From: Arenimonas composti TR7-09 = DSM 18010
Lineage (GTDB): Bacteria; Pseudomonadota; Gammaproteobacteria; Xanthomonadales; Xanthomonadaceae
Reading direction: 5' to 3'
DNA: 64,000 nt
Assembly: GCF_000426365.1 (NCBI RefSeq)
Contig: NZ_AUFF01000002.1
Location: forward strand, 62,001-126,000
Shown here: piece after piece, positions 1-8,488 of the stretch
How the letters are laid out: each line of letters begins with the position of its first letter
Numbering within the stretch: position 1 is the first letter of the stretch
Notes under the pieces: generated by a model
What the model was told of the DNA's origin: nothing
Seen by the model: the letters and a program-made list of their open reading frames with translations, nothing else
Databases searched by the model: none
Program-made: the position numbers and the translations under genes

Positions 1-2
1 TT

Positions 3-83
3 TTTGAGCCGGGCAATGCGCGCAACCTCGAGGAGTGCCGCGCGATTCAACAAGTGCTTGATCACGCTAATATCGAATCATGA
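3..83 (+). CDS. C-terminal tail of an unknown protein, cut by window start
   Basis: An open frame runs in from the left edge and ends at TGA 81-83, giving 26 residues that finish E-C-R-A-I-Q-Q-V-L-D-H-A-N-I-E-S. The stop overlaps the ATG of the methyltransferase gene at 80 in an ATGA arrangement, which is typical of translational coupling, so this is probably the previous gene of the same operon. Too little is left to recognise a family. Confidence 0.55.
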   Translation, partial: FEPGNARNLEECRAIQQVLDHANIES

Positions 84-1384
84 AGGCTGCCTACTTCCGC
101 CGCTGCCAAGTCGAAACCCCACCAGATGTCGTGGACGTATTGTGGAATCTGGCCAGCCAGTTTCGTGGCGGCGAGTCCTTCGGCAACGTTCTCGACTTGG
201 GCGCGGGCGATGGCCGCTTCGGACGCCAGCCGCAGCGCTACCGCTCCTACACCGGCGTGGAGAAGGATGCGGCCAAAGTCGCCGGTGCGCGCATGCCGCA
301 CGGCTCGCGCCTGGTGGTGGGCGATGCGCTGAGTTGGCCAGACTCGGGCTACGGGCTGGCAATCGGCAACCCGCCCTACATTCGCCATCACGGACTGGAG
401 CCGCACTGGCGTGACGCCGCGCTGGCCCGGATCGCCCATGCTGGCGGGCCGACCTTGAAGAAGACGGCCAACGCCTTCGTGATCTTTCTTACTCAGGCGC
501 TGCTTAAGACGGACGACGCCGGCCTCGTCGTGCAGTTGGTGCCCTACGAGTGGGTTACGCGGCCCAGCGCGCTGGAGCTGCGCGAGTACATCCAAGCACA
601 AGGATGGAACGTATACGTCTATCGCTTCGATGCAAACATCTTCCCCACAGTATTGACCACCGCCTCGGTGACGGTGATCGACAAGGCGGGACGCGAGGGC
701 CTCTGGAAATTTGGCCAGATCGGGCGCGCGGGGGAAGTGCGGGCCGTCCCCCAAGCCACGGGCTCGCGCTCCAAGCCCATCGCCTACAGCGCCGGCCACG
801 AAACGCTGCACGCGATCCGAGGCCTAAGTCCGGGCGGTCAGGACCTGTTCGTTCTCACCGAGGAGGAGCGACTGTTCTTCGGGCTGCGGCGTCGCACCGA
901 CGTGGTGCCCGCAGTCACCAGCCTCCGGCACCTGAATGAGAACATCGGCCAGCTCACGGCAAAGGCGTTCGAGTCGCACTATGTCGCGCAGGGCCGTCGG
1001 TGCTGGCTCATCCGCAGCGATCGTGAGTCGCTCTCGGAGGCGTTGAAGGACTACCTGCGCCATGTCGGCCCGCGCTGGAAGCAGTACAGCACTTGCACAA
1101 CGCGCTCGCCGTGGTGGCGTTACAAGCCGCACCCAGTGCCGGCTGTGCTGGTCGCCTCGGGCTTCATTGGCAACGCTCCGAAAATTGTGGTCAACGAGAC
1201 TAAGGCGATCGCAGTGGGCTCGGTCTATGGCATCTTGACCGATGAGGGCGCTCCCAGCGCCCGCACAATTGCACAAGGATTGGCCGGTTTCGATTTCGGG
1301 CGGCGCATTGTGCATCACTCCAACAATCTGAAGAAGCTCGAAGTTCGCCAGCTCAATACGATCTTGAATCAGTTGTTCGGCTAA
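80..1384 (+). CDS. N6-adenine-specific DNA methyltransferase
   Basis: Class I SAM-dependent methyltransferase, 434 residues. Motif I is L-D-L-G-A-G-D-G-R-F near residue 42, and the amino-methyltransferase motif IV N-P-P-Y is at about residue 97, so the expected product is N6-methyladenine in DNA. The region after motif IV probably holds target recognition and has no match I know. The start ATG overlaps the stop of the previous frame, and the GHKL ATPase gene follows after 8 bases, so the gene sits inside an operon rather than in a classical R-M pair. No restriction nuclease is visible within the window. It may mark self DNA for the downstream system; that is inference. Confidence 0.85.
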   Translation: MKAAYFRRCQVETPPDVVDVLWNLASQFRGGESFGNVLDLGAGDGRFGRQPQRYRSYTGVEKDAAKVAGARMPHGSRLVVGDALSWPDSGYGLAIGNPPYIRHHGLEPHWRDAALARIAHAGGPTLKKTANAFVIFLTQALLKTDDAGLVVQLVPYEWVTRPSALELREYIQAQGWNVYVYRFDANIFPTVLTTASVTVIDKAGREGLWKFGQIGRAGEVRAVPQATGSRSKPIAYSAGHETLHAIRGLSPGGQDLFVLTEEERLFFGLRRRTDVVPAVTSLRHLNENIGQLTAKAFESHYVAQGRRCWLIRSDRESLSEALKDYLRHVGPRWKQYSTCTTRSPWWRYKPHPVPAVLVASGFIGNAPKIVVNETKAIAVGSVYGILTDEGAPSARTIAQGLAGFDFGRRIVHHSNNLKKLEVRQLNTILNQLFG

Positions 1385-1392
1385 GGACCTGC

Positions 1393-3771
1393 GTGGCCAC
1401 AAAAGCGCTCGCCGCCTCCAAAAAAATGCGCAAGGCGCATTTTCATATCGACGCCGCTCTGTTCGAGGAACTGGGCGAACGCTTGGTCAGCCGCCCGGAG
1501 ATCGCGCTAGCCGAGCTCATCAAGAACGCCTACGACGCCGATGCCGCGCGCTGCCGTATCCGCATCGCACCCGAGCAGATCGAAGTGAGCGATAACGGTC
1601 ATGGTCTGACTGAGGGCGAATTCCTGGGCAACTGGATGGTGGTGAGCACTCAAGTCAAGGGGAAGCAGCGCTTCTCGCGCCGCTACCTTCGTCCGATGGC
1701 CGGTTCGAAGGGGGTGGGACGCTTCTCTGCGCGCTTCTTGGGCTCGCACTTGGAACTGGATAGCGTCTCGATCGATCCGGTCAGCAAGCAGCGCACTCGA
1801 CTGGTGGCGCAGTTCGACTGGAAGGCGATCTCGCGCGCGCAAAGTATCGAGGCTGTGATCATCCCGTACACGGTCACTGCTGTCGACGACGGCGTGCGGA
1901 CTGGCACGACATTGCGCATCACCCAGCTGCGCGAGGGCGTCGACGCACTGGCGACGGATCGAGTCAAGACTGATGTGTTGCGCCTAATCGATCCGTCCGG
2001 TGGTCTGGAGCGCCCACAATTCCACCAAAGCACTCAGCGCGCAAAGAAGGGCGATCCGGGCTTCCAAGTCGTCATTCACGAGTCGGACGAGGATGAAGGC
2101 TCGCCCGCGGAAGCCACCGACGTCGCAAAAGCGGTATTGGCAGCCTACACCGGCCGTGTGCGCATGGAAGTAGACGAAGACGGCCAAGTCGACTTCAAGG
2201 TGTATTGGCGTGGTCAGGACGCACCGATCGAAAACAAGCGGTTTTCCCTGCGACGTCTGGCGCTGCCGTTCACCGCTGCGCGCTTTGCAAAGCACGATGG
2301 TCCAGTTGACCACCGCGGTGTGCCTATGGAACTCGAGCGCATTCAGCACCTGCCTTTAGCTCCAAAGCTCAACTCGCCGGTGTTCATTGACCTGCGCTTT
2401 TTCCCGAAGCGCAAGGGCGCCTTTCAAGGGCTCCCAGTCAACGGCGTACAGGCGCAGTCCTGGCTCAAGGATCACGGCAGCTTCGCCGTCGTCGACAACC
2501 AATTCGTAATGCCCGCATACGCCGACCAAGACAGTGACTGGTTGGCGATCGAAACGAGCAAATCGCACAATGAGCGCTCTTGGCAGTCCGTACTAACGCC
2601 GGTCTGGTACCCCATGGACCCGGCCGACAAGGCCAACCCGCAGCGCAACCCGATGCTGGCGCTTCCGCGCATGACGCAGTTGTTCGGTCGGGTGCACATC
2701 TCCACGCAGAAGCGCTTGGACGACGTCGATGACGACAGCTGGTTACAGCCGAACATGGACCGCGAGTCCCTGCGCGCCAATGGCGCGCTCAATCTACTCT
2801 GGCACCTTTGCCGCTTCGCCGCCGAGGCGCTGGCTCATTTCGATCGCAAACTGCGCCTGGAAGAAAAGGAAGCGGCCGAGCGCGACGCCCAGCGCGAGGC
2901 AAGGACGGCCTTGTCAGCGGCCATCGCTGAGATCAAGACCTCCACGCAGATCGAGCCGGCCTACCGCGAAAAGGTCGTCCAGCAGCTCAAGGCCGCGCAG
3001 ACCCGATTGCAGGAAGCCGATGAATACCAGCAAGAAGCGCGGATCTCGCTCGAGCTGATGTCGCTGATGGGCGTGATGGCTGGCTTCATGACGCACGAGT
3101 TCGAGAAAGCGCTGGCGACTATGCAGCGCATAACCCGCGGCGCCCGCACCTTGGCGAAGCGCGAGCCATCTCTGAAAGAGGCGGCGGACAAGCTGGCCGA
3201 GAACGAGAGGACACTAGCCAACTACCTTGAATACATGCGTCTTTTCGCCGAAAAGGCGCGCATTCCTGCGCCGGAACGCTTCAAGGCGCGCGCACAGCTC
3301 ACCGTCGCCACCCATGCGTTGGAGTCGCTCGCCGCGGACCACGGCATTTCCATCACAATTGCCGCCGATGCCAAGCTGCCCGGCCCATACGTGCCGGTCG
3401 CCGCCTACCACGGGGTGGTAGTGAATCTTGTGTCCAACGCCATGAAGGCCGTGGTCGCGCGCATAGGCAAGGCCGAGCGCAAGATTCGCCTGTTCGCCAC
3501 AAACGAGGGCAATCGCCACATTTTGGTGTGCGCCGACACCGGCATCGGCATCCCCGAATATTTGCGCGAGCGCATCTGGGACCCACTGTTCACCACGACC
3601 GGCAGTTCTGAAGACAATCCGCTCGCGTCCGGATTGGGGTTGGGGCTCAGCGTCGTGCAGCGCGTGGTCAAGCGCTTCGACGGGCGCATTGAGTTGCTAA
3701 AGGAAGCCCCGCCGGGATACATCACGGCCTTTCGCGTCACGCTGCCGCTGGCAGAACAGGACCAGGCATGA
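1393..3771 (+). CDS. Two-module GHKL ATPase / histidine-kinase-like protein
   Basis: 792 residues from a GTG start; an in-frame ATG lies at codon 12. The N-terminal module is a Hsp90/MORC-like Bergerat-fold ATPase: N box E-L-I-K-N-A-Y-D-A-D near residue 42, V-S-D-N-G-H-G-L near 66, and G-S-K-G-V-G-R-F-S near 106. A middle region follows, then a charged coiled coil at roughly 495-555. Next comes a histidine-kinase-like phosphoacceptor helix with M-T-H-E-F (His568), and a second ATPase module with V-N-L-V-S-N-A-M, A-D-T-G-I-G-I and G-L-G-L-G-L-S-V-V. There are no membrane helices, so it should be cytoplasmic. It overlaps the receiver-domain gene by ATGA, which fits a kinase/response-regulator pair. 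What it senses is unknown; the MORC-like module suggests DNA or a DNA-bound complex. Confidence 0.85.
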   Translation: MATKALAASKKMRKAHFHIDAALFEELGERLVSRPEIALAELIKNAYDADAARCRIRIAPEQIEVSDNGHGLTEGEFLGNWMVVSTQVKGKQRFSRRYLRPMAGSKGVGRFSARFLGSHLELDSVSIDPVSKQRTRLVAQFDWKAISRAQSIEAVIIPYTVTAVDDGVRTGTTLRITQLREGVDALATDRVKTDVLRLIDPSGGLERPQFHQSTQRAKKGDPGFQVVIHESDEDEGSPAEATDVAKAVLAAYTGRVRMEVDEDGQVDFKVYWRGQDAPIENKRFSLRRLALPFTAARFAKHDGPVDHRGVPMELERIQHLPLAPKLNSPVFIDLRFFPKRKGAFQGLPVNGVQAQSWLKDHGSFAVVDNQFVMPAYADQDSDWLAIETSKSHNERSWQSVLTPVWYPMDPADKANPQRNPMLALPRMTQLFGRVHISTQKRLDDVDDDSWLQPNMDRESLRANGALNLLWHLCRFAAEALAHFDRKLRLEEKEAAERDAQREARTALSAAIAEIKTSTQIEPAYREKVVQQLKAAQTRLQEADEYQQEARISLELMSLMGVMAGFMTHEFEKALATMQRITRGARTLAKREPSLKEAADKLAENERTLANYLEYMRLFAEKARIPAPERFKARAQLTVATHALESLAADHGISITIAADAKLPGPYVPVAAYHGVVVNLVSNAMKAVVARIGKAERKIRLFATNEGNRHILVCADTGIGIPEYLRERIWDPLFTTTGSSEDNPLASGLGLGLSVVQRVVKRFDGRIELLKEAPPGYITAFRVTLPLAEQDQA

Positions 3772-4853
3772 AGCTGTTGTTGATCGAGGACGAGGCGGAC
3801 TTCATTGAAGATCTCGTGCAGCTGGCCGACGGCGCCGCCACTGTGCTGGCGCCGGGCGACGTCGGCTTGCTGATGCGCGAACTGCCGGGCGAAGGGCCAG
3901 CAGAAGACCAGCTGGCTGACATCCTTGGCGGGATAATTCGGGAGCACCAGATCGACCTGGTCGTGCTGGACTCGGACCTTACACACGCCAAGGGCGAGTT
4001 GCAGGCGCAATCCGGGTACCGCGCGGCCTTGCACCAGTTGGGCATGCCGGTGTGCCGTTACCAGAAGGGAGGCTCGGAAACGCAGTTCACCTGGTGGAAG
4101 CGCTTGAACCGCGCCATGTCCGAAGGCGCGGACGCGATCTGGGTGCCGCGCGCGATGGTTAGTGGCGATCGCATGGATGAGTTGGTGCCGTGGCTGCAGG
4201 ACATCTGCACGGGCTTCCAGACATTGTCGCAGCGCCTGGAAGCAGCGCCGCAACTGCTGCAAGCCAAGTCGGATCTGGGCCCCGCGGATGTCCTGGCCCT
4301 GCTGCTGGACAAGCCAAACGCCATGGTTGACCTGCTCGGCTACACATCGCACAGCCTGCTGTTCTTCGCCGCCGCGGACGAGCCCTCGGACGTGCGCACG
4401 CCATCGCAGCGCTATGCCACGCGCCTTGGCTACTGGTTGTACAACTATGTGCTGACCTTTCCCGGACCGATCTTGCCGGCCGGGGCGGCCGCCGCCTTCC
4501 TTAACCTGGACCAAGATTCGTTCAACCTTGAGGCGGTGCAGACGCTGGTCGAACCGGCGCGTTACAGCGGTCCGTTCGGCCAGACGGAACGCTATTACTG
4601 GCGATCGGACCTGATGCAACTGCTTGAAGCCCACGGCGGCGATCTAGCGCGCGCGCCGGCGCTCGCCGACGCGGCGCTCACGCGCCTCGATCCGGACGAC
4701 CCGGGTGCCGAGGTGTACTGGTGTGTGCTCTCGCAGGCCCCGGTGCTGGCGTCCGAGACAGCGCCCAATCCCGAGTGGATCCCCATCGGCGCAGTGCAGT
4801 CGCGCGTGAAGCAGTCCAAGCTCGATGAACTTGGCCCGTTGCTGAGTATCTAG
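3768..4853 (+). CDS. Response-regulator-like protein with unknown C-terminal region
   Basis: 361 residues. The first 110 or so look like a receiver domain: K-L-L-L-I-E-D-E-A-D at the start gives the acidic pair, and I-D-L-V-V-L-D-S-D-L-T near 62-72 gives the likely phosphoacceptor Asp68. The remaining 250 residues do not look like a DNA-binding output domain and I do not recognise them; a W-L-Y-N-Y-V-L-T-F-P-G-P stretch near 225 is distinctive. The start overlaps the stop of the kinase-like gene by four bases, and the next gene begins four bases after its stop. The natural inference is that the upstream protein phosphorylates it and the C-terminal part is the effector or relay. Confidence 0.7.
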   Translation: MKLLLIEDEADFIEDLVQLADGAATVLAPGDVGLLMRELPGEGPAEDQLADILGGIIREHQIDLVVLDSDLTHAKGELQAQSGYRAALHQLGMPVCRYQKGGSETQFTWWKRLNRAMSEGADAIWVPRAMVSGDRMDELVPWLQDICTGFQTLSQRLEAAPQLLQAKSDLGPADVLALLLDKPNAMVDLLGYTSHSLLFFAAADEPSDVRTPSQRYATRLGYWLYNYVLTFPGPILPAGAAAAFLNLDQDSFNLEAVQTLVEPARYSGPFGQTERYYWRSDLMQLLEAHGGDLARAPALADAALTRLDPDDPGAEVYWCVLSQAPVLASETAPNPEWIPIGAVQSRVKQSKLDELGPLLSI

Positions 4854-4857
4854 CGCG

Positions 4858-5625
4858 ATGAGTGCCGTGAGCCTGTTCGGGCGCTTCTGGCGCGATGTCG
4901 GGTCGGACATCAAGCGAGTGGTCAAGCGCCACGCGACCTTACTGTTTCCAGATCAGCTGGGACTGCGCGACTTGGACGGCGGTGACCAGGAGATCTACTT
5001 GCACGAGCCGGTCATGTTCTACGGCGCGCCGCTTCGCGGCGGCAGCCACAAGCCCGGAGGACGGCGGGCACTGTTCGTCGACGGCACCTTTCGGGTCCGG
5101 GAGAATGGTCGCAGCTTCGACCTCGTGCAGGCCGCCTGCAACTTGGTCGTGTACGACACGGTAAATGTAGCCAACGTGTCCTACACGCTCACCTTGATCG
5201 ACTCGATGCACTTCGACATCGAGCCCGCGGATACGCAGAGCGAATTTCATCCCATGTTCCACGCCCAGCGCGGCTACTCCACGCTGATCACGCCTGCCAA
5301 GGTGGTCGCGCAAGCGATGATGGCCTCCCACCTACCGGAGGACAAGATTCATGTCGAGCACGCGGAGATGAACTTGGAGTTCGTGCGGCTGCCGTGCCCG
5401 CAGATGGATATGCTCTCGGTTCTGGCCACGGTGGTTGCGGACTTCTTCTGCAACAAGGACCAGACGACGCGTCCTGAGAAGGACGCCTTTCACGCAATGC
5501 TCAAGCGCCTGTTGAGCGAGAAGAATCCCATGCGCGAAAGCTTGTCGTCGAAAGCTCTGTCCCGGCGTTGGCAAGATCGCCCGCCGTTCGCCGCCCCGCA
5601 TTGGTACAAGGAAAGCGGCGGCTAG
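4858..5625 (+). CDS. Unknown protein, last gene of the methyltransferase/kinase operon
   Basis: 255 residues, starting four bases after the receiver-domain gene, so almost certainly co-transcribed with it. I do not recognise the family with confidence. It is soluble with no signal peptide. A central S-E-F-H-P-M-F-H-A-Q-R-G stretch (about residues 121-132) has paired histidines that recall DUF2290-type proteins, but this is a weak impression. The last 30 residues are basic. Position suggests an accessory or effector role in the same system. The convergent cyclase-like gene ends 11 bases away. Confidence 0.7.
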   Translation: MSAVSLFGRFWRDVGSDIKRVVKRHATLLFPDQLGLRDLDGGDQEIYLHEPVMFYGAPLRGGSHKPGGRRALFVDGTFRVRENGRSFDLVQAACNLVVYDTVNVANVSYTLTLIDSMHFDIEPADTQSEFHPMFHAQRGYSTLITPAKVVAQAMMASHLPEDKIHVEHAEMNLEFVRLPCPQMDMLSVLATVVADFFCNKDQTTRPEKDAFHAMLKRLLSEKNPMRESLSSKALSRRWQDRPPFAAPHWYKESGG

Positions 5626-5635
5626 ATGCTCGCCG

Positions 5636-6493
5636 CTAGACCAACAACGCCGGGTCCTGAAAGCGCTCGTGGACGCGTTCGTTGTGGTATTCCCGCAGCG
5701 CTTCGTACTTGTTTAAGACACTTCCTGAGTGGGTCCCGAGCGCCTTGGCGATGATGTCGCGGTGGCGACCCATGAACTCGCGCTTGTTTTCCCAAGCTCG
5801 AAAGTTCATGTAGTCATCGCGCGCCTCGCCGGGGGGTATAGTCAATGCGTGCTTGAGCTCCTTCGTGCTCAGCTCGATTTCGCCCAAGGCCATGGTCAAG
5901 TAGTCCAGTGCCGGCAAGCCGGAGGTGTACGCTGCTGGCGCAATGAACACGTCGGGAATCGGATCAATTTGCGGCGCGTACATGCCGCGACCTTGGTGTC
6001 CGACAAAGTACGCATACAGGTCGGCGTCCACGCCAATGAAGGGAGACCCGATAGCCCCTTCGATGCGCGCGGCACGAACCAGGGCCGGGCTAACGATCGT
6101 GTCGCTGTCCTCCTTGAACCAGCCGCGCGCGACCCCGCCCCGCACTAACTGCCCATCGTCGACGAGCATGCGACCCTGTGCGATAGCCAGGCCAGAGAGC
6201 TGGTGCAAGATCGCGTCGAACTCGGTCATGGTCTTGACCGCTTCGGACTGCATATCCCACACCGCCACCATCGAATCCGAAATCGCCCAGTACTTGCGGC
6301 CAAAGAAGCCATGCATCTCGCCGGACTCGGTGAACTCTCCGGCGAAGCGTTTGAGCACGCGCATCAGGCCGTCAGCCTGCGCCAGCGTGCCCGCCGCCGC
6401 GACTTGATGGCTAAACCCCAACAAGTCCGCGTAGAAGACAATCGCATCCGCGAACTGAAAGTTCTTGGGCACTTCTGCGATTTCGGTGTGCAT
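5636..6493 (-). CDS. Class III nucleotide-cyclase-like protein
   Basis: 285 residues. The start F-Y-A-D-L-L-G-F-S (Asp23) and the hairpin W-A-I-S-D-S-M-V-A-V-W (Asp73) match the two metal-binding Asp motifs of class III adenylate/guanylate cyclases, and R-G-G-V-A-R-G-W near 120 matches the following conserved strand. This is a broad family of cyclase-fold proteins, many of unknown activity. There is no receptor, HAMP or membrane segment, so any regulation would come from a partner. It is convergent with the methyltransferase/kinase operon and ends 11 bases from it. It could make a cyclic nucleotide signal for defence as Pycsar cyclases do, but it could equally be a degenerate cyclase. No effector gene with a recognisable cyclic-nucleotide sensor is adjacent. 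Confidence 0.6.
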   Translation of the reverse strand: MHTEIAEVPKNFQFADAIVFYADLLGFSHQVAAAGTLAQADGLMRVLKRFAGEFTESGEMHGFFGRKYWAISDSMVAVWDMQSEAVKTMTEFDAILHQLSGLAIAQGRMLVDDGQLVRGGVARGWFKEDSDTIVSPALVRAARIEGAIGSPFIGVDADLYAYFVGHQGRGMYAPQIDPIPDVFIAPAAYTSGLPALDYLTMALGEIELSTKELKHALTIPPGEARDDYMNFRAWENKREFMGRHRDIIAKALGTHSGSVLNKYEALREYHNERVHERFQDPALLV

Positions 6494-6691: not shown

Positions 6692-6746
6692 GCCGATCCA
6701 AATCTGACCCACTTAGCCCCGCTGCCGCCGATTCAAATCTGACCCA
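6692..6746. repeat. Two terminal direct repeats of the IS21 remnant
   Basis: GCCGATCCAAATCTGACCCA (6692-6711) and GCCGATTCAAATCTGACCCA (6727-6746) differ at one base and are 35 bases apart. IS21-family ends carry such repeats as transposase binding sites. Confidence 0.75.
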
Positions 6747-6755
6747 CCCCGGCGC

Positions 6756-7599
<844 letters not shown>

Positions 7600-7603
<4 letters not shown>

Positions 7604-8488
7604 CCGCCCGGGAAGAGCGCCAGCGTCTGGTGACCCTGATCGAGGAAGCGCATACCGGAGGTGCGCGCCTGGCGGTGGCCTGTCGCGAGGCCGGCGTCAC
7701 GCTGCGTACGCTGCAGCGCTGGCGTGATCCGGAGGCCGGCATCCGCGCCGATGGCCGGCCCGATGCGGTGCACCCCAAGCCGGTGAACGCATTGAGCGAG
7801 CAGGAGCGGGCGGACATCGTGGAGGTGGCCAACACGCCGCAGTACGCCGCCCTGCCGCCGGCGCAGATCGTGCCGCGACTGGCCGACGCGGGCCGCTACC
7901 TGGCCAGCGAGTCGAGCTTCCACCGGGTCCACGTGAGGCTGGACAAGCCCACCACCGCGGCCGGGCCAAGGCACCGCAGAACCGTCGCAAGTCGACCACG
8001 CATGTAGCCCGCGCCCCCAACCAGGTGTGGTGCTGGGACGTGACATGGCTGCGCTCGCGGGTGACCGGACGCTGGTTCTACCTGTACCTGATCCTGGACT
8101 TGTACAGCCGCAAGATCGTCGGCCACGAGGTGCATGAGATCGAGTCCGGGAAAGCCTGTTCCGCACCGCCAAGTACCGTCCGGGCTTCCCGGTCAAGGGC
8201 TTCGCCGATCTGCAGGGTGCACAGGCGTGGGCCGCGCAGTTCGTACACTGGTACAACCACGAGCACCTGCACAGCGCGCTGCGCTTCGTGGCCCCGGCCG
8301 TTCGCCACGCTGGCCAGGATGACATCCAGCTGCAGGCTCGCAGACAGGTGTATGAGCTCGCCCGCCAGCGCCATCCGCAACGTTGGACCGGAGCGACCAG
8401 GGACTGGAGCCGCGTCGGCGCCGTCACCCTCAATCCCGAGCGCGATGCGGTCGCGTCGATGCAAGAAAGTAAGCAACTAGCTGCATAA
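7600..8488 (+). pseudogene. Broken IS3-type transposase OrfB (DDE integrase domain)
   Basis: Coding similarity runs through three frames. The first part (7600 to about 7930) has the N-terminal helical domain. A frameshift near 7930 leads into the second, with W-C-W-D-V-T-W-L-R-S carrying the first catalytic Asp at about 8037 and L-D-L-Y-S-R-K-I-V-G. At about 8150 the frame changes again and jumps to L-F-R-T-A-K-Y-R-P-G, H-W-Y-N-H-E-H-L-H-S-A-L and the C-terminus. The segment that should hold the second Asp and the Glu is missing, so the enzyme cannot be active. Confidence 0.85.

Follow-up and report, generated by a model that had tools for sequence, protein, structure and literature searches.

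A DNA methyltransferase, a double-GHKL kinase, a receiver and a new protein family encoded together in Arenimonas composti: a candidate restriction-type defence operon

Four genes, designated here M, K, R and U, lie end to end at the start of a 64,000-nucleotide stretch of the genome of Arenimonas composti TR7-09 = DSM 18010 (contig NZ_AUFF01000002.1, positions 62,001 to 126,000, forward strand); this whole stretch is called the window, and coordinates are counted from its first nucleotide. An earlier note, made from the letters of the sequence alone, had described them as a candidate defence operon of touching or overlapping genes for an adenine methyltransferase, a double-GHKL kinase, a receiver and a protein without a known family. 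Family matches and structure models bear these identities out, and the coordinates confirm the arrangement—on one strand, M and K are 8 nt apart, K and R overlap by 4 nt, and R and U are 4 nt apart. M-K-R-U is a predicted operon, conserved across diverse bacteria and also in a few archaea, a set that crosses domains, and it is very probably a defence system of some kind. The features of the operon are collected in Table 1.

Table 1. Genes and predicted functional sites of the M-K-R-U operon (window coordinates).
Feature	Position	Strand	Description	Basis
M	80-1384	+	Eco57I/TaqI-like N6-adenine DNA methyltransferase, 434 aa	Pfam and PDB matches
K	1393-3771	+	two-GHKL kinase	Pfam HATPase_c_3 and HATPase_c
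K, N-terminal module	about 1495-1866	+	predicted paraMORC/HgiDII-like GHKL ATPase	HATPase_c_3
K, H-box His568	codon 3094-3096	+	predicted phospho-acceptor	conservation
K, C-terminal module	about 3412-3753	+	HATPase_c	Pfam
R	3768-4853	+	predicted receiver	model, Foldseek, invariant Asp68
R, Asp68	codon 3969-3971	+	predicted phospho-acceptor; acidic Glu7/Asp8 alongside	conservation
U	4858-5625	+	new family, distantly DUF2290-like as a whole family; predicted effector	

Predicted products of the four genes

M matches the Pfam family Eco57I (E 1.5e-6; score 28.9 bits, cut-off 25.3) and the TaqI methylase in the PDB (E 1.2e-10). It carries motif I (DLGAGDG) and motif IV (NPPY); N97-P98-P99-Y100 and D39, G41, G43 and D44 are invariant across five aligned homologues. 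With M, the locus has the DNA methyltransferase required of a type II restriction-modification system.

K joins two GHKL modules in one chain, matched by HATPase_c_3 (E 1.5e-17) and HATPase_c (E 1.3e-21), and its residues 17-193 match the NCBIfam model of the BbrUII/HgiDII restriction enzymes (E 6e-17). In PADLOC (2023), too, K meets only type II restriction-enzyme models, by way of its GHKL part, besides a weak HEC-07 match (0.086). Conservation was read across the 74 K proteins of loci that also hold U: His568 is kept in 74/74, as are the N-terminal ATP-site residues examined, save Asp50 (71/74). At the C-terminal ATP site, N678 and N682 are kept in 73/74, G747 in 71/74, G749 and G751 in 73/74 and D715 in 66/74 (asparagine in seven); Thr735 and Phe733 are less well kept than the other residues of this site. 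An ordinary chromosomal two-component system was considered and excluded on the grounds of K's N-terminal GHKL module, the rarity of the set and the linkage of the set to DNA-marking enzymes.

Against Pfam, R gives a weak and implausible match only (0.05). Its AlphaFold2 model is confident (pLDDT 93.6, pTM 0.93), the first 10 Foldseek rows include 8 receiver proteins (lowest E just 0.006), and among the aligned R proteins Asp68 is kept in 59/59 and Asp8 in 58/59. From the model, the Foldseek rows and the invariant Asp68, R is predicted to be a receiver; the Response_reg family itself is matched by 6/59 members at E<=0.01. As far as residues can tell, K and R between them hold what a phosphorelay calls for—an accepting histidine and an accepting aspartate, with the catalytic boxes. 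The C-terminal half of R is large and conserved, and we read in its model a pattern of helices resembling a helix-turn-helix (HTH).

U is marked by a near-invariant motif, H118-x-D120 ... H131-P-x-x-H135 ... R177, in which H135 is kept in 66/66 members, R177 and P132 in 65/66 each, D120 in 62/66 and H118 in 59/66; its AlphaFold2 model is confident (pLDDT 92.5, pTM 0.90). The window's U has no Pfam match, no Pfam family is common to U members, and a U profile finds nothing at E<=1 among PDB sequences. The best PDB rows for the model, of actin-capping protein, were discarded as noise (TM about 0.2-0.3). Neither R nor U has a match in PADLOC (2023), and no nuclease domain was matched in K, R or U by Pfam, PADLOC or NCBIfam—K reaches restriction-enzyme models through its GHKL part alone, and the fold of U is unmatched.

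By Pfam, DUF2290 (PF10053) is found in 1/66 U members (E 0.038) and not in the window's U, which does not qualify U as a DUF2290 protein. Aligned by hhalign as a whole family with three DUF2290 proteins, U reaches a probability of 92.6 (E 4.5e-7), with the alignment centred on the HxD/HPxxH/R-I-P core; the maximum for 100 column-shuffled controls was 0.5 (E 0.11), and that for six other alignments 1.2 (E 0.045). Nine second-tier U members reach 62.6.

The slot that U occupies was also viewed in distant relatives of K. At four loci (L019, L020, L024 and L040; our loci are numbered in this way throughout), a distant K is followed by a protein of 210-228 aa and then by a third gene, of metallo-beta-lactamase fold where examined (L019) or HNH (L040). 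The protein between is of 227 aa with a weak receiver match (0.067) in L019, and of 210 aa without a receiver match in L040. The hydrolase and nuclease genes of these two loci offer no more than a hint that the third slot holds an effector.

Conservation and gene order

Loci were selected by likeness to K, and their frequencies are therefore not population figures. The sources were the window, a plasmid of Paraburkholderia largidicola (L012), viral contigs of IMG/VR (37 loci through K and 7 through M) and species genomes, of which 84,980 were scanned and the best 80 of 543 relatives taken. In 112 loci the K frame reached 550 aa or more, and removal of four duplicates left 108 distinct ones. 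In the viral contigs, the 37 loci were matched by a two-row K alignment and the 7 by a five-row M alignment, three of the latter being places already sampled; a single K query and a two-row M alignment matched nothing there, and U had no relative among them, nor a match in the plasmid collection. The U family was gathered with an iterated hidden Markov model (HMM) from five seeds and comprises 76 open reading frames (ORFs); K is a long frame in 74 of their loci and split in 2. For the alignments, the window and L012 were set apart and near-duplicates and out-of-range lengths dropped, which took U from 74 to 71 to 65 sequences and R from 80 to 77 to 71. The conservation figures above refer to the 65 U plus the window, and to 58 of the 71 R (13 omitted by choice) plus the window.

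The earlier note had staked its proposal on the four genes being found together in other genomes, and they are. Among the 22 closest distinct loci (K at E<1e-100), R is present in 22/22, U in 22/22 and an N6-type methyltransferase, by iterated profile, in 21/22; the remaining one, L061, carries an N6_N4-type enzyme. The next tier, 67 loci with a weaker K, has R in 50 and U in 48. That U is always accompanied by K is partly by construction, because U loci were fetched mostly through K; searches with U as the query are the fair test. Such searches found U in 3/398 genomes of the phylum and in 2/295 genomes of a Bacteroidota class. With the window's genome and the seed genome (G805) taken away, 3/3 of the matches, three independent cases, are contiguous K-R-U with an N6-type methyltransferase adjoining. 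Since the four genes recur in distant organisms and U alone leads back to K-R-U, the grouping goes beyond chance.

Gene order within the three is constant: K, R and U follow one another on the same strand in 74/74 loci where U accompanies a long K frame, the gaps are below 300 nt in 73 (L061 has a K frame that ends early), and the median gaps over 62 loci are -4 nt for K-R and -0.5 nt for R-U. The position of M varies—in 64 loci (L106 and L135 left out) it lies upstream in 34, downstream in 23 and on the opposite strand in 7. Pairwise distances in 62 loci with all four genes (L106, L135, L113 and L063 left out) correlate at 0.72, 0.61 and 0.58 within K-R-U and at 0.46, 0.41 and 0.31 with M. 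All of these correlations, M's included, exceed those of 200 permutations; M is thus linked to the other three, but more loosely than they are to one another.

The order of the window recurs on the P. largidicola plasmid as HTH-M-K-R-U, where M is 42% identical to the window's copy, K 35%, R 25% and U, over 110 residues, 29%. K is found at E<=1e-35 in 2/369 genomes of the class, one of them the window's own. In haloarchaea, K-R-U occurs in Halostagnicola, Natrinema and Halolamina (L065, L066 and L072, the last with a split K).

A further clade of K was seen at L067, L071, L074, L076, L077, L080, L081, L086, L090, L096, L017 and L070. Its receivers are longer (R profile likeness 97.0), and its third genes, encoding 194-277 aa, have a weak U-like core in common (hhalign probability 66, E 5.5e-5). 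At L067 a DrmB-like gene lies upstream.

A changing DNA-marking partner

The earlier note had taken the locus for an adenine-methylation operon. This fits the window, where the methyltransferase is of N6 type, but the unit is wider: K-R-U is constant, and the marking enzyme varies between loci. In 68 of 76 U loci a permissive profile picks up an N6-type methyltransferase (though L061, L033 and L128 are better read as having N4/N6 or C5 enzymes); Ssp genes are present in 5, and the other 3 show neither, L027 among them at a contig edge. The L061 enzyme is N6_N4_Mtase by Pfam, and a C5 methylase lies directly 3' of U in L033 (E 1.4e-45) and in L128 (E 5.7e-41). SspC is followed by SspD and then by K-R-U in five loci, all of Bacteroidota (L101, L102, L109, L111 and L113). 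Three of these Ssp loci, read further, give SspB-SspC-SspD-K-R-U on one strand; in L162, SspC is split over two frames. Because K-R-U stays constant and its marking partner differs, K-R-U has the look of a restriction arm that works with marks of differing chemistry.

In L061 (5070-6848), upstream of K-R-U, the methyltransferase is fused to a C-terminal domain resembling Mrr_cat or an inactive nuclease. In L099, a DpdB/DndB-like gene lies upstream.

Relation to known systems

The earlier note knew of no named system with this combination, and this holds in part: none matched K, R or U in PADLOC (2023) or the literature. The pairing of a double-GHKL kinase, a receiver and a methyltransferase had, however, been predicted in 2021, in another family and without U (PMC8011034). 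No description of K-R-U, and no experiment on any member, was found in our literature search, which had most subscription papers and bioRxiv outside its reach.

The nearest published thing to M-K-R-U is that 2021 pair. In an in silico study, Bellieny-Rabelo (2021, PMC8011034) described HEF_HK kinases with Response_reg_2 receivers near restriction-modification genes, C5 methylases prominent among them, and suggested a paraMORC ancestry. The likeness lies in a kinase built of HATPase_c_3, H-box and HATPase_c that adjoins a receiver beside DNA methyltransferases. The difference lies in the families: the window's K falls short of HEF_HK (E 0.0078; 17.1 bits against a cut-off of 24.1), the K proteins of L014 and L026, the two scanned besides the window's, show no HEF_HK at E<=1, and 0/59 R proteins match Response_reg_2 at E<=0.01. 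Membership of HEF_HK/Response_reg_2 (PF19191/PF19192) is thus ruled out where tested, since K and R fail the Pfam definitions. The 369 class genomes yielded all three of the Response_reg_2 loci we found, with proteins longer than those of K-R-U loci (kinases of 991-1003 aa, receiver proteins of 555-617 aa) and a methylase that is C5-like by motif. No U-family ORF was found in them; L169 ends 491 nt past the receiver gene, which leaves two informative.

ParaMORC, the HgiDII/BbrUII-type enzymes and GHKL-Shedu (VcSduA) also have a GHKL ATPase at the N-terminus, in the context of restriction or defence (PMC2292703, PMC12137116). In these systems the ATPase works with nucleases or helicases, whereas K carries a histidine kinase in the same chain. 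The Ssp phosphorothioation system with SspE shares SspC-SspD, and SspB in three loci, with the Bacteroidota K-R-U loci, and differs in that here K-R-U stands directly behind SspD. Of the five Ssp loci, one has a DUF262 (SspE-type) gene on its own contig, some 36 kb beyond U, three have such genes on other contigs only, and one has none; with four short contigs (11.7-48.6 kb) among the five, a neighbour may have been missed in some. Histidine kinase genes have been noted near Acinetobacter Ssp clusters (PMC7464106, PMC12421847), including Acinetobacter baumannii SspBCD that has no adjoining SspE and a histidine kinase gene in its region (PMC12421847).

DUF2290 with a helicase forms a system that inhibits phage T7 (Rousset 2022, PMC9122126), and the U family is distantly DUF2290-like. 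In the Ssp loci L163 and L164, a gene for 756 aa lies directly past U, and the gene in the same place in L102 (= L164) matches the ResIII helicase family. The window differs in that its U partners a kinase-receiver pair, and the gene next to it has no Pfam match and no helicase family.

Detocs brings two-component logic to phage defence, with a sensor that has TPR repeats and an effector that cleaves nucleotides; to our knowledge it includes no DNA-marking enzyme. No TPR family was found in K (Pfam, E<=1), and no Detocs model appears in the PADLOC rows for K, R and U, though the 2023 library may hold none. MADS was rejected: M alone resembles a mad gene (mad2, 2.1e-9, as a methyltransferase), and K, R and U give no mad match at E<=1.

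Proposed mechanism and alternatives

The gene identities, the co-occurrence, the K-R-U order, the varying marking partners, the kept phospho-sites and the distant likeness of U to DUF2290, all observed here by computation, are the ground on which we propose that M-K-R-U is a restriction-type defence whose decision to attack would be run through a two-component phosphorelay, with K-R-U as its portable arm. M would mark the host's DNA. The N-terminal GHKL ATPase of K, of the HgiDII/BbrUII/paraMORC kind, would dimerise on unmarked DNA or slide along it, and this would switch on the C-terminal kinase, with phosphorylation of His568. The phosphate would then pass to Asp68 of R, and phosphorylated R would release or recruit U, the putative effector, to damage foreign DNA or stop the infected cell. 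For this mechanism as a whole we put the chances at even; that U is a nuclease is a less secure guess. We know of no earlier restriction system in which attack is licensed by His-Asp phosphotransfer.

K-R-U would by this proposal be a portable restriction arm that pairs with several chemically different marking systems. In its widest form, it may be a universal arm across N6-methyladenine, N4/N6-type, 5-methylcytosine and phosphorothioate marks, with a kinase that senses unmarked or foreign DNA by a DNA-clamping GHKL module and with a DUF2290-like effector; we hold this tentatively, as somewhat short of an even prospect. One arm could fit different marking chemistries because K would sense through its GHKL module, not through a mark-specific nuclease.

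Several results weigh against the proposed phosphorelay and its portable arm. The conserved C-terminal half of R could be the true output, for example a DNA-binding regulator. The fold of U has no match at E<=0.001 in the PDB or viral structure libraries, and with no solved fold to compare, its activity is a guess. Its likeness to DUF2290 falls to an hhalign probability of 0.6 for the five members nearest the window and to 0.4 for a third, more distant set; tier 1 and tier 2 of U align with each other at 81.1, and the likeness is thus family-wide, reaching the window's U through a chain of relatives. The metallo-beta-lactamase and HNH genes are not clearly behind a receiver. In the 19 most distant distinct loci R is found in 4 and U in 0, and 38/112 K loci have no recognisable U. 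M correlates with K well above permutations, so it is not freely exchanged; the Ssp loci are all from Bacteroidota, L113 being near-identical to L109; and the sensing of a missing mark by K, like the flow of phosphate and the role and action of U, is something we infer.

Another account, which we consider improbable though the strongest of the rivals, is a regulatory two-component system. K and R would sense the state of DNA or stress, the C-terminal half of phosphorylated R would regulate the neighbouring restriction-modification genes by transcription or activity, and U would be an accessory. PMC8011034 proposed the same for the related HEF_HK/Response_reg_2 pair, and the large conserved C-terminal half of R, with its HTH-like pattern, speaks for it as well. 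Against it, what constantly adjoins the marking enzyme in the tabulated loci is K, R and U, and no constant separate restriction enzyme was seen among neighbours that were partly family-searched. The sensory half of K is, moreover, the ATPase module of HgiDII/BbrUII-type restriction enzymes, and the U family resembles one linked to defence.

Rather less probable is a division of labour in which K is a restriction ATPase, R a structural adaptor with an effector domain of its own at the C-terminus, and U the subunit that recognises the target or mark. It would suit the distant K locus L044, where a longer protein (480 aa) follows K and no U-like gene comes after, and it would suit the greater divergence of U (9-34% identity to the window's copy, as against 12-45% for R). 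U is nonetheless an unlikely mark reader, because it is present in loci with adenine, cytosine and phosphorothioate marks, and a hydrolase or nuclease family two places past K in two distant relatives also speaks against this role. Very unlikely, in our judgement, is an epigenetic or cell-cycle regulator with no part in defence, its adenine mark read by a cytosolic kinase. Phosphorelays are mostly regulatory as a general rule, but the patchy distribution of K (two of the class genomes, as above), its occurrence on a plasmid and in viral contigs, a genomic site that varies between relatives and the chemical diversity of the partners fit a mobile defence better.

If the proposed phosphorelay-run defence is real, it joins two-component signalling to restriction-modification, fields that rarely meet, and proposes a testable way for a single defence arm to police several DNA marks. 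U would add an effector family that is new and confidently modelled, and there would be reason to seek phospho-control in paraMORC-type defences. K-R-U is also a candidate partner for SspBCD clusters without an adjoining SspE, the case raised in PMC12421847.

Genomic setting

The operon looks to have been acquired at a site that varies within the genus. The gene before M, on the same strand and beyond the window's edge, encodes by its translation an aceE-like pyruvate dehydrogenase E1, and is present in 20/21 genomes of a genus sample, the window's own included. Similarity to seven relatives stops about 30 nt before the aceE stop; the next 2243 bp here past that point have no match in the compared stretches of these relatives, which themselves differ from one another downstream of aceE and have only scattered blocks in common. 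This loss of similarity, with the relatives mutually different, suggests a variable site and an acquired operon.

The earlier note had placed the genes in a less GC-rich island, and the drop is there: GC is 62.8% over 1-5625, whereas among 97 overlapping blocks of equal length in 10001-64000 the minimum is 68.7%. It had also pointed to an upstream frame that overlaps M. An open frame at 4-414 does so, and nothing supporting it as a gene was seen, no family search having been made.

Past U, a gene on the reverse strand (5636-6493) faces the end of the operon; its product begins VFYADLLGFS, resembling a class III nucleotide cyclase, and matches the Pycsar cyclase weakly in PADLOC (E 0.018). It has no Pfam match, and no homologue in the 50 loci compared. 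Transposase-like frames at 6733-8480, IstB-like and IS3-type by translation, adjoin the operon and fit an acquired island.

A promoter scan 5' of M found none, and no small HTH gene was seen 5' of M in the window. At two other loci, small HTH proteins that resemble the controller proteins of restriction systems are encoded directly 5' of M or K (L012:6358-6603, annotated; L176:11343-11612, by reading).

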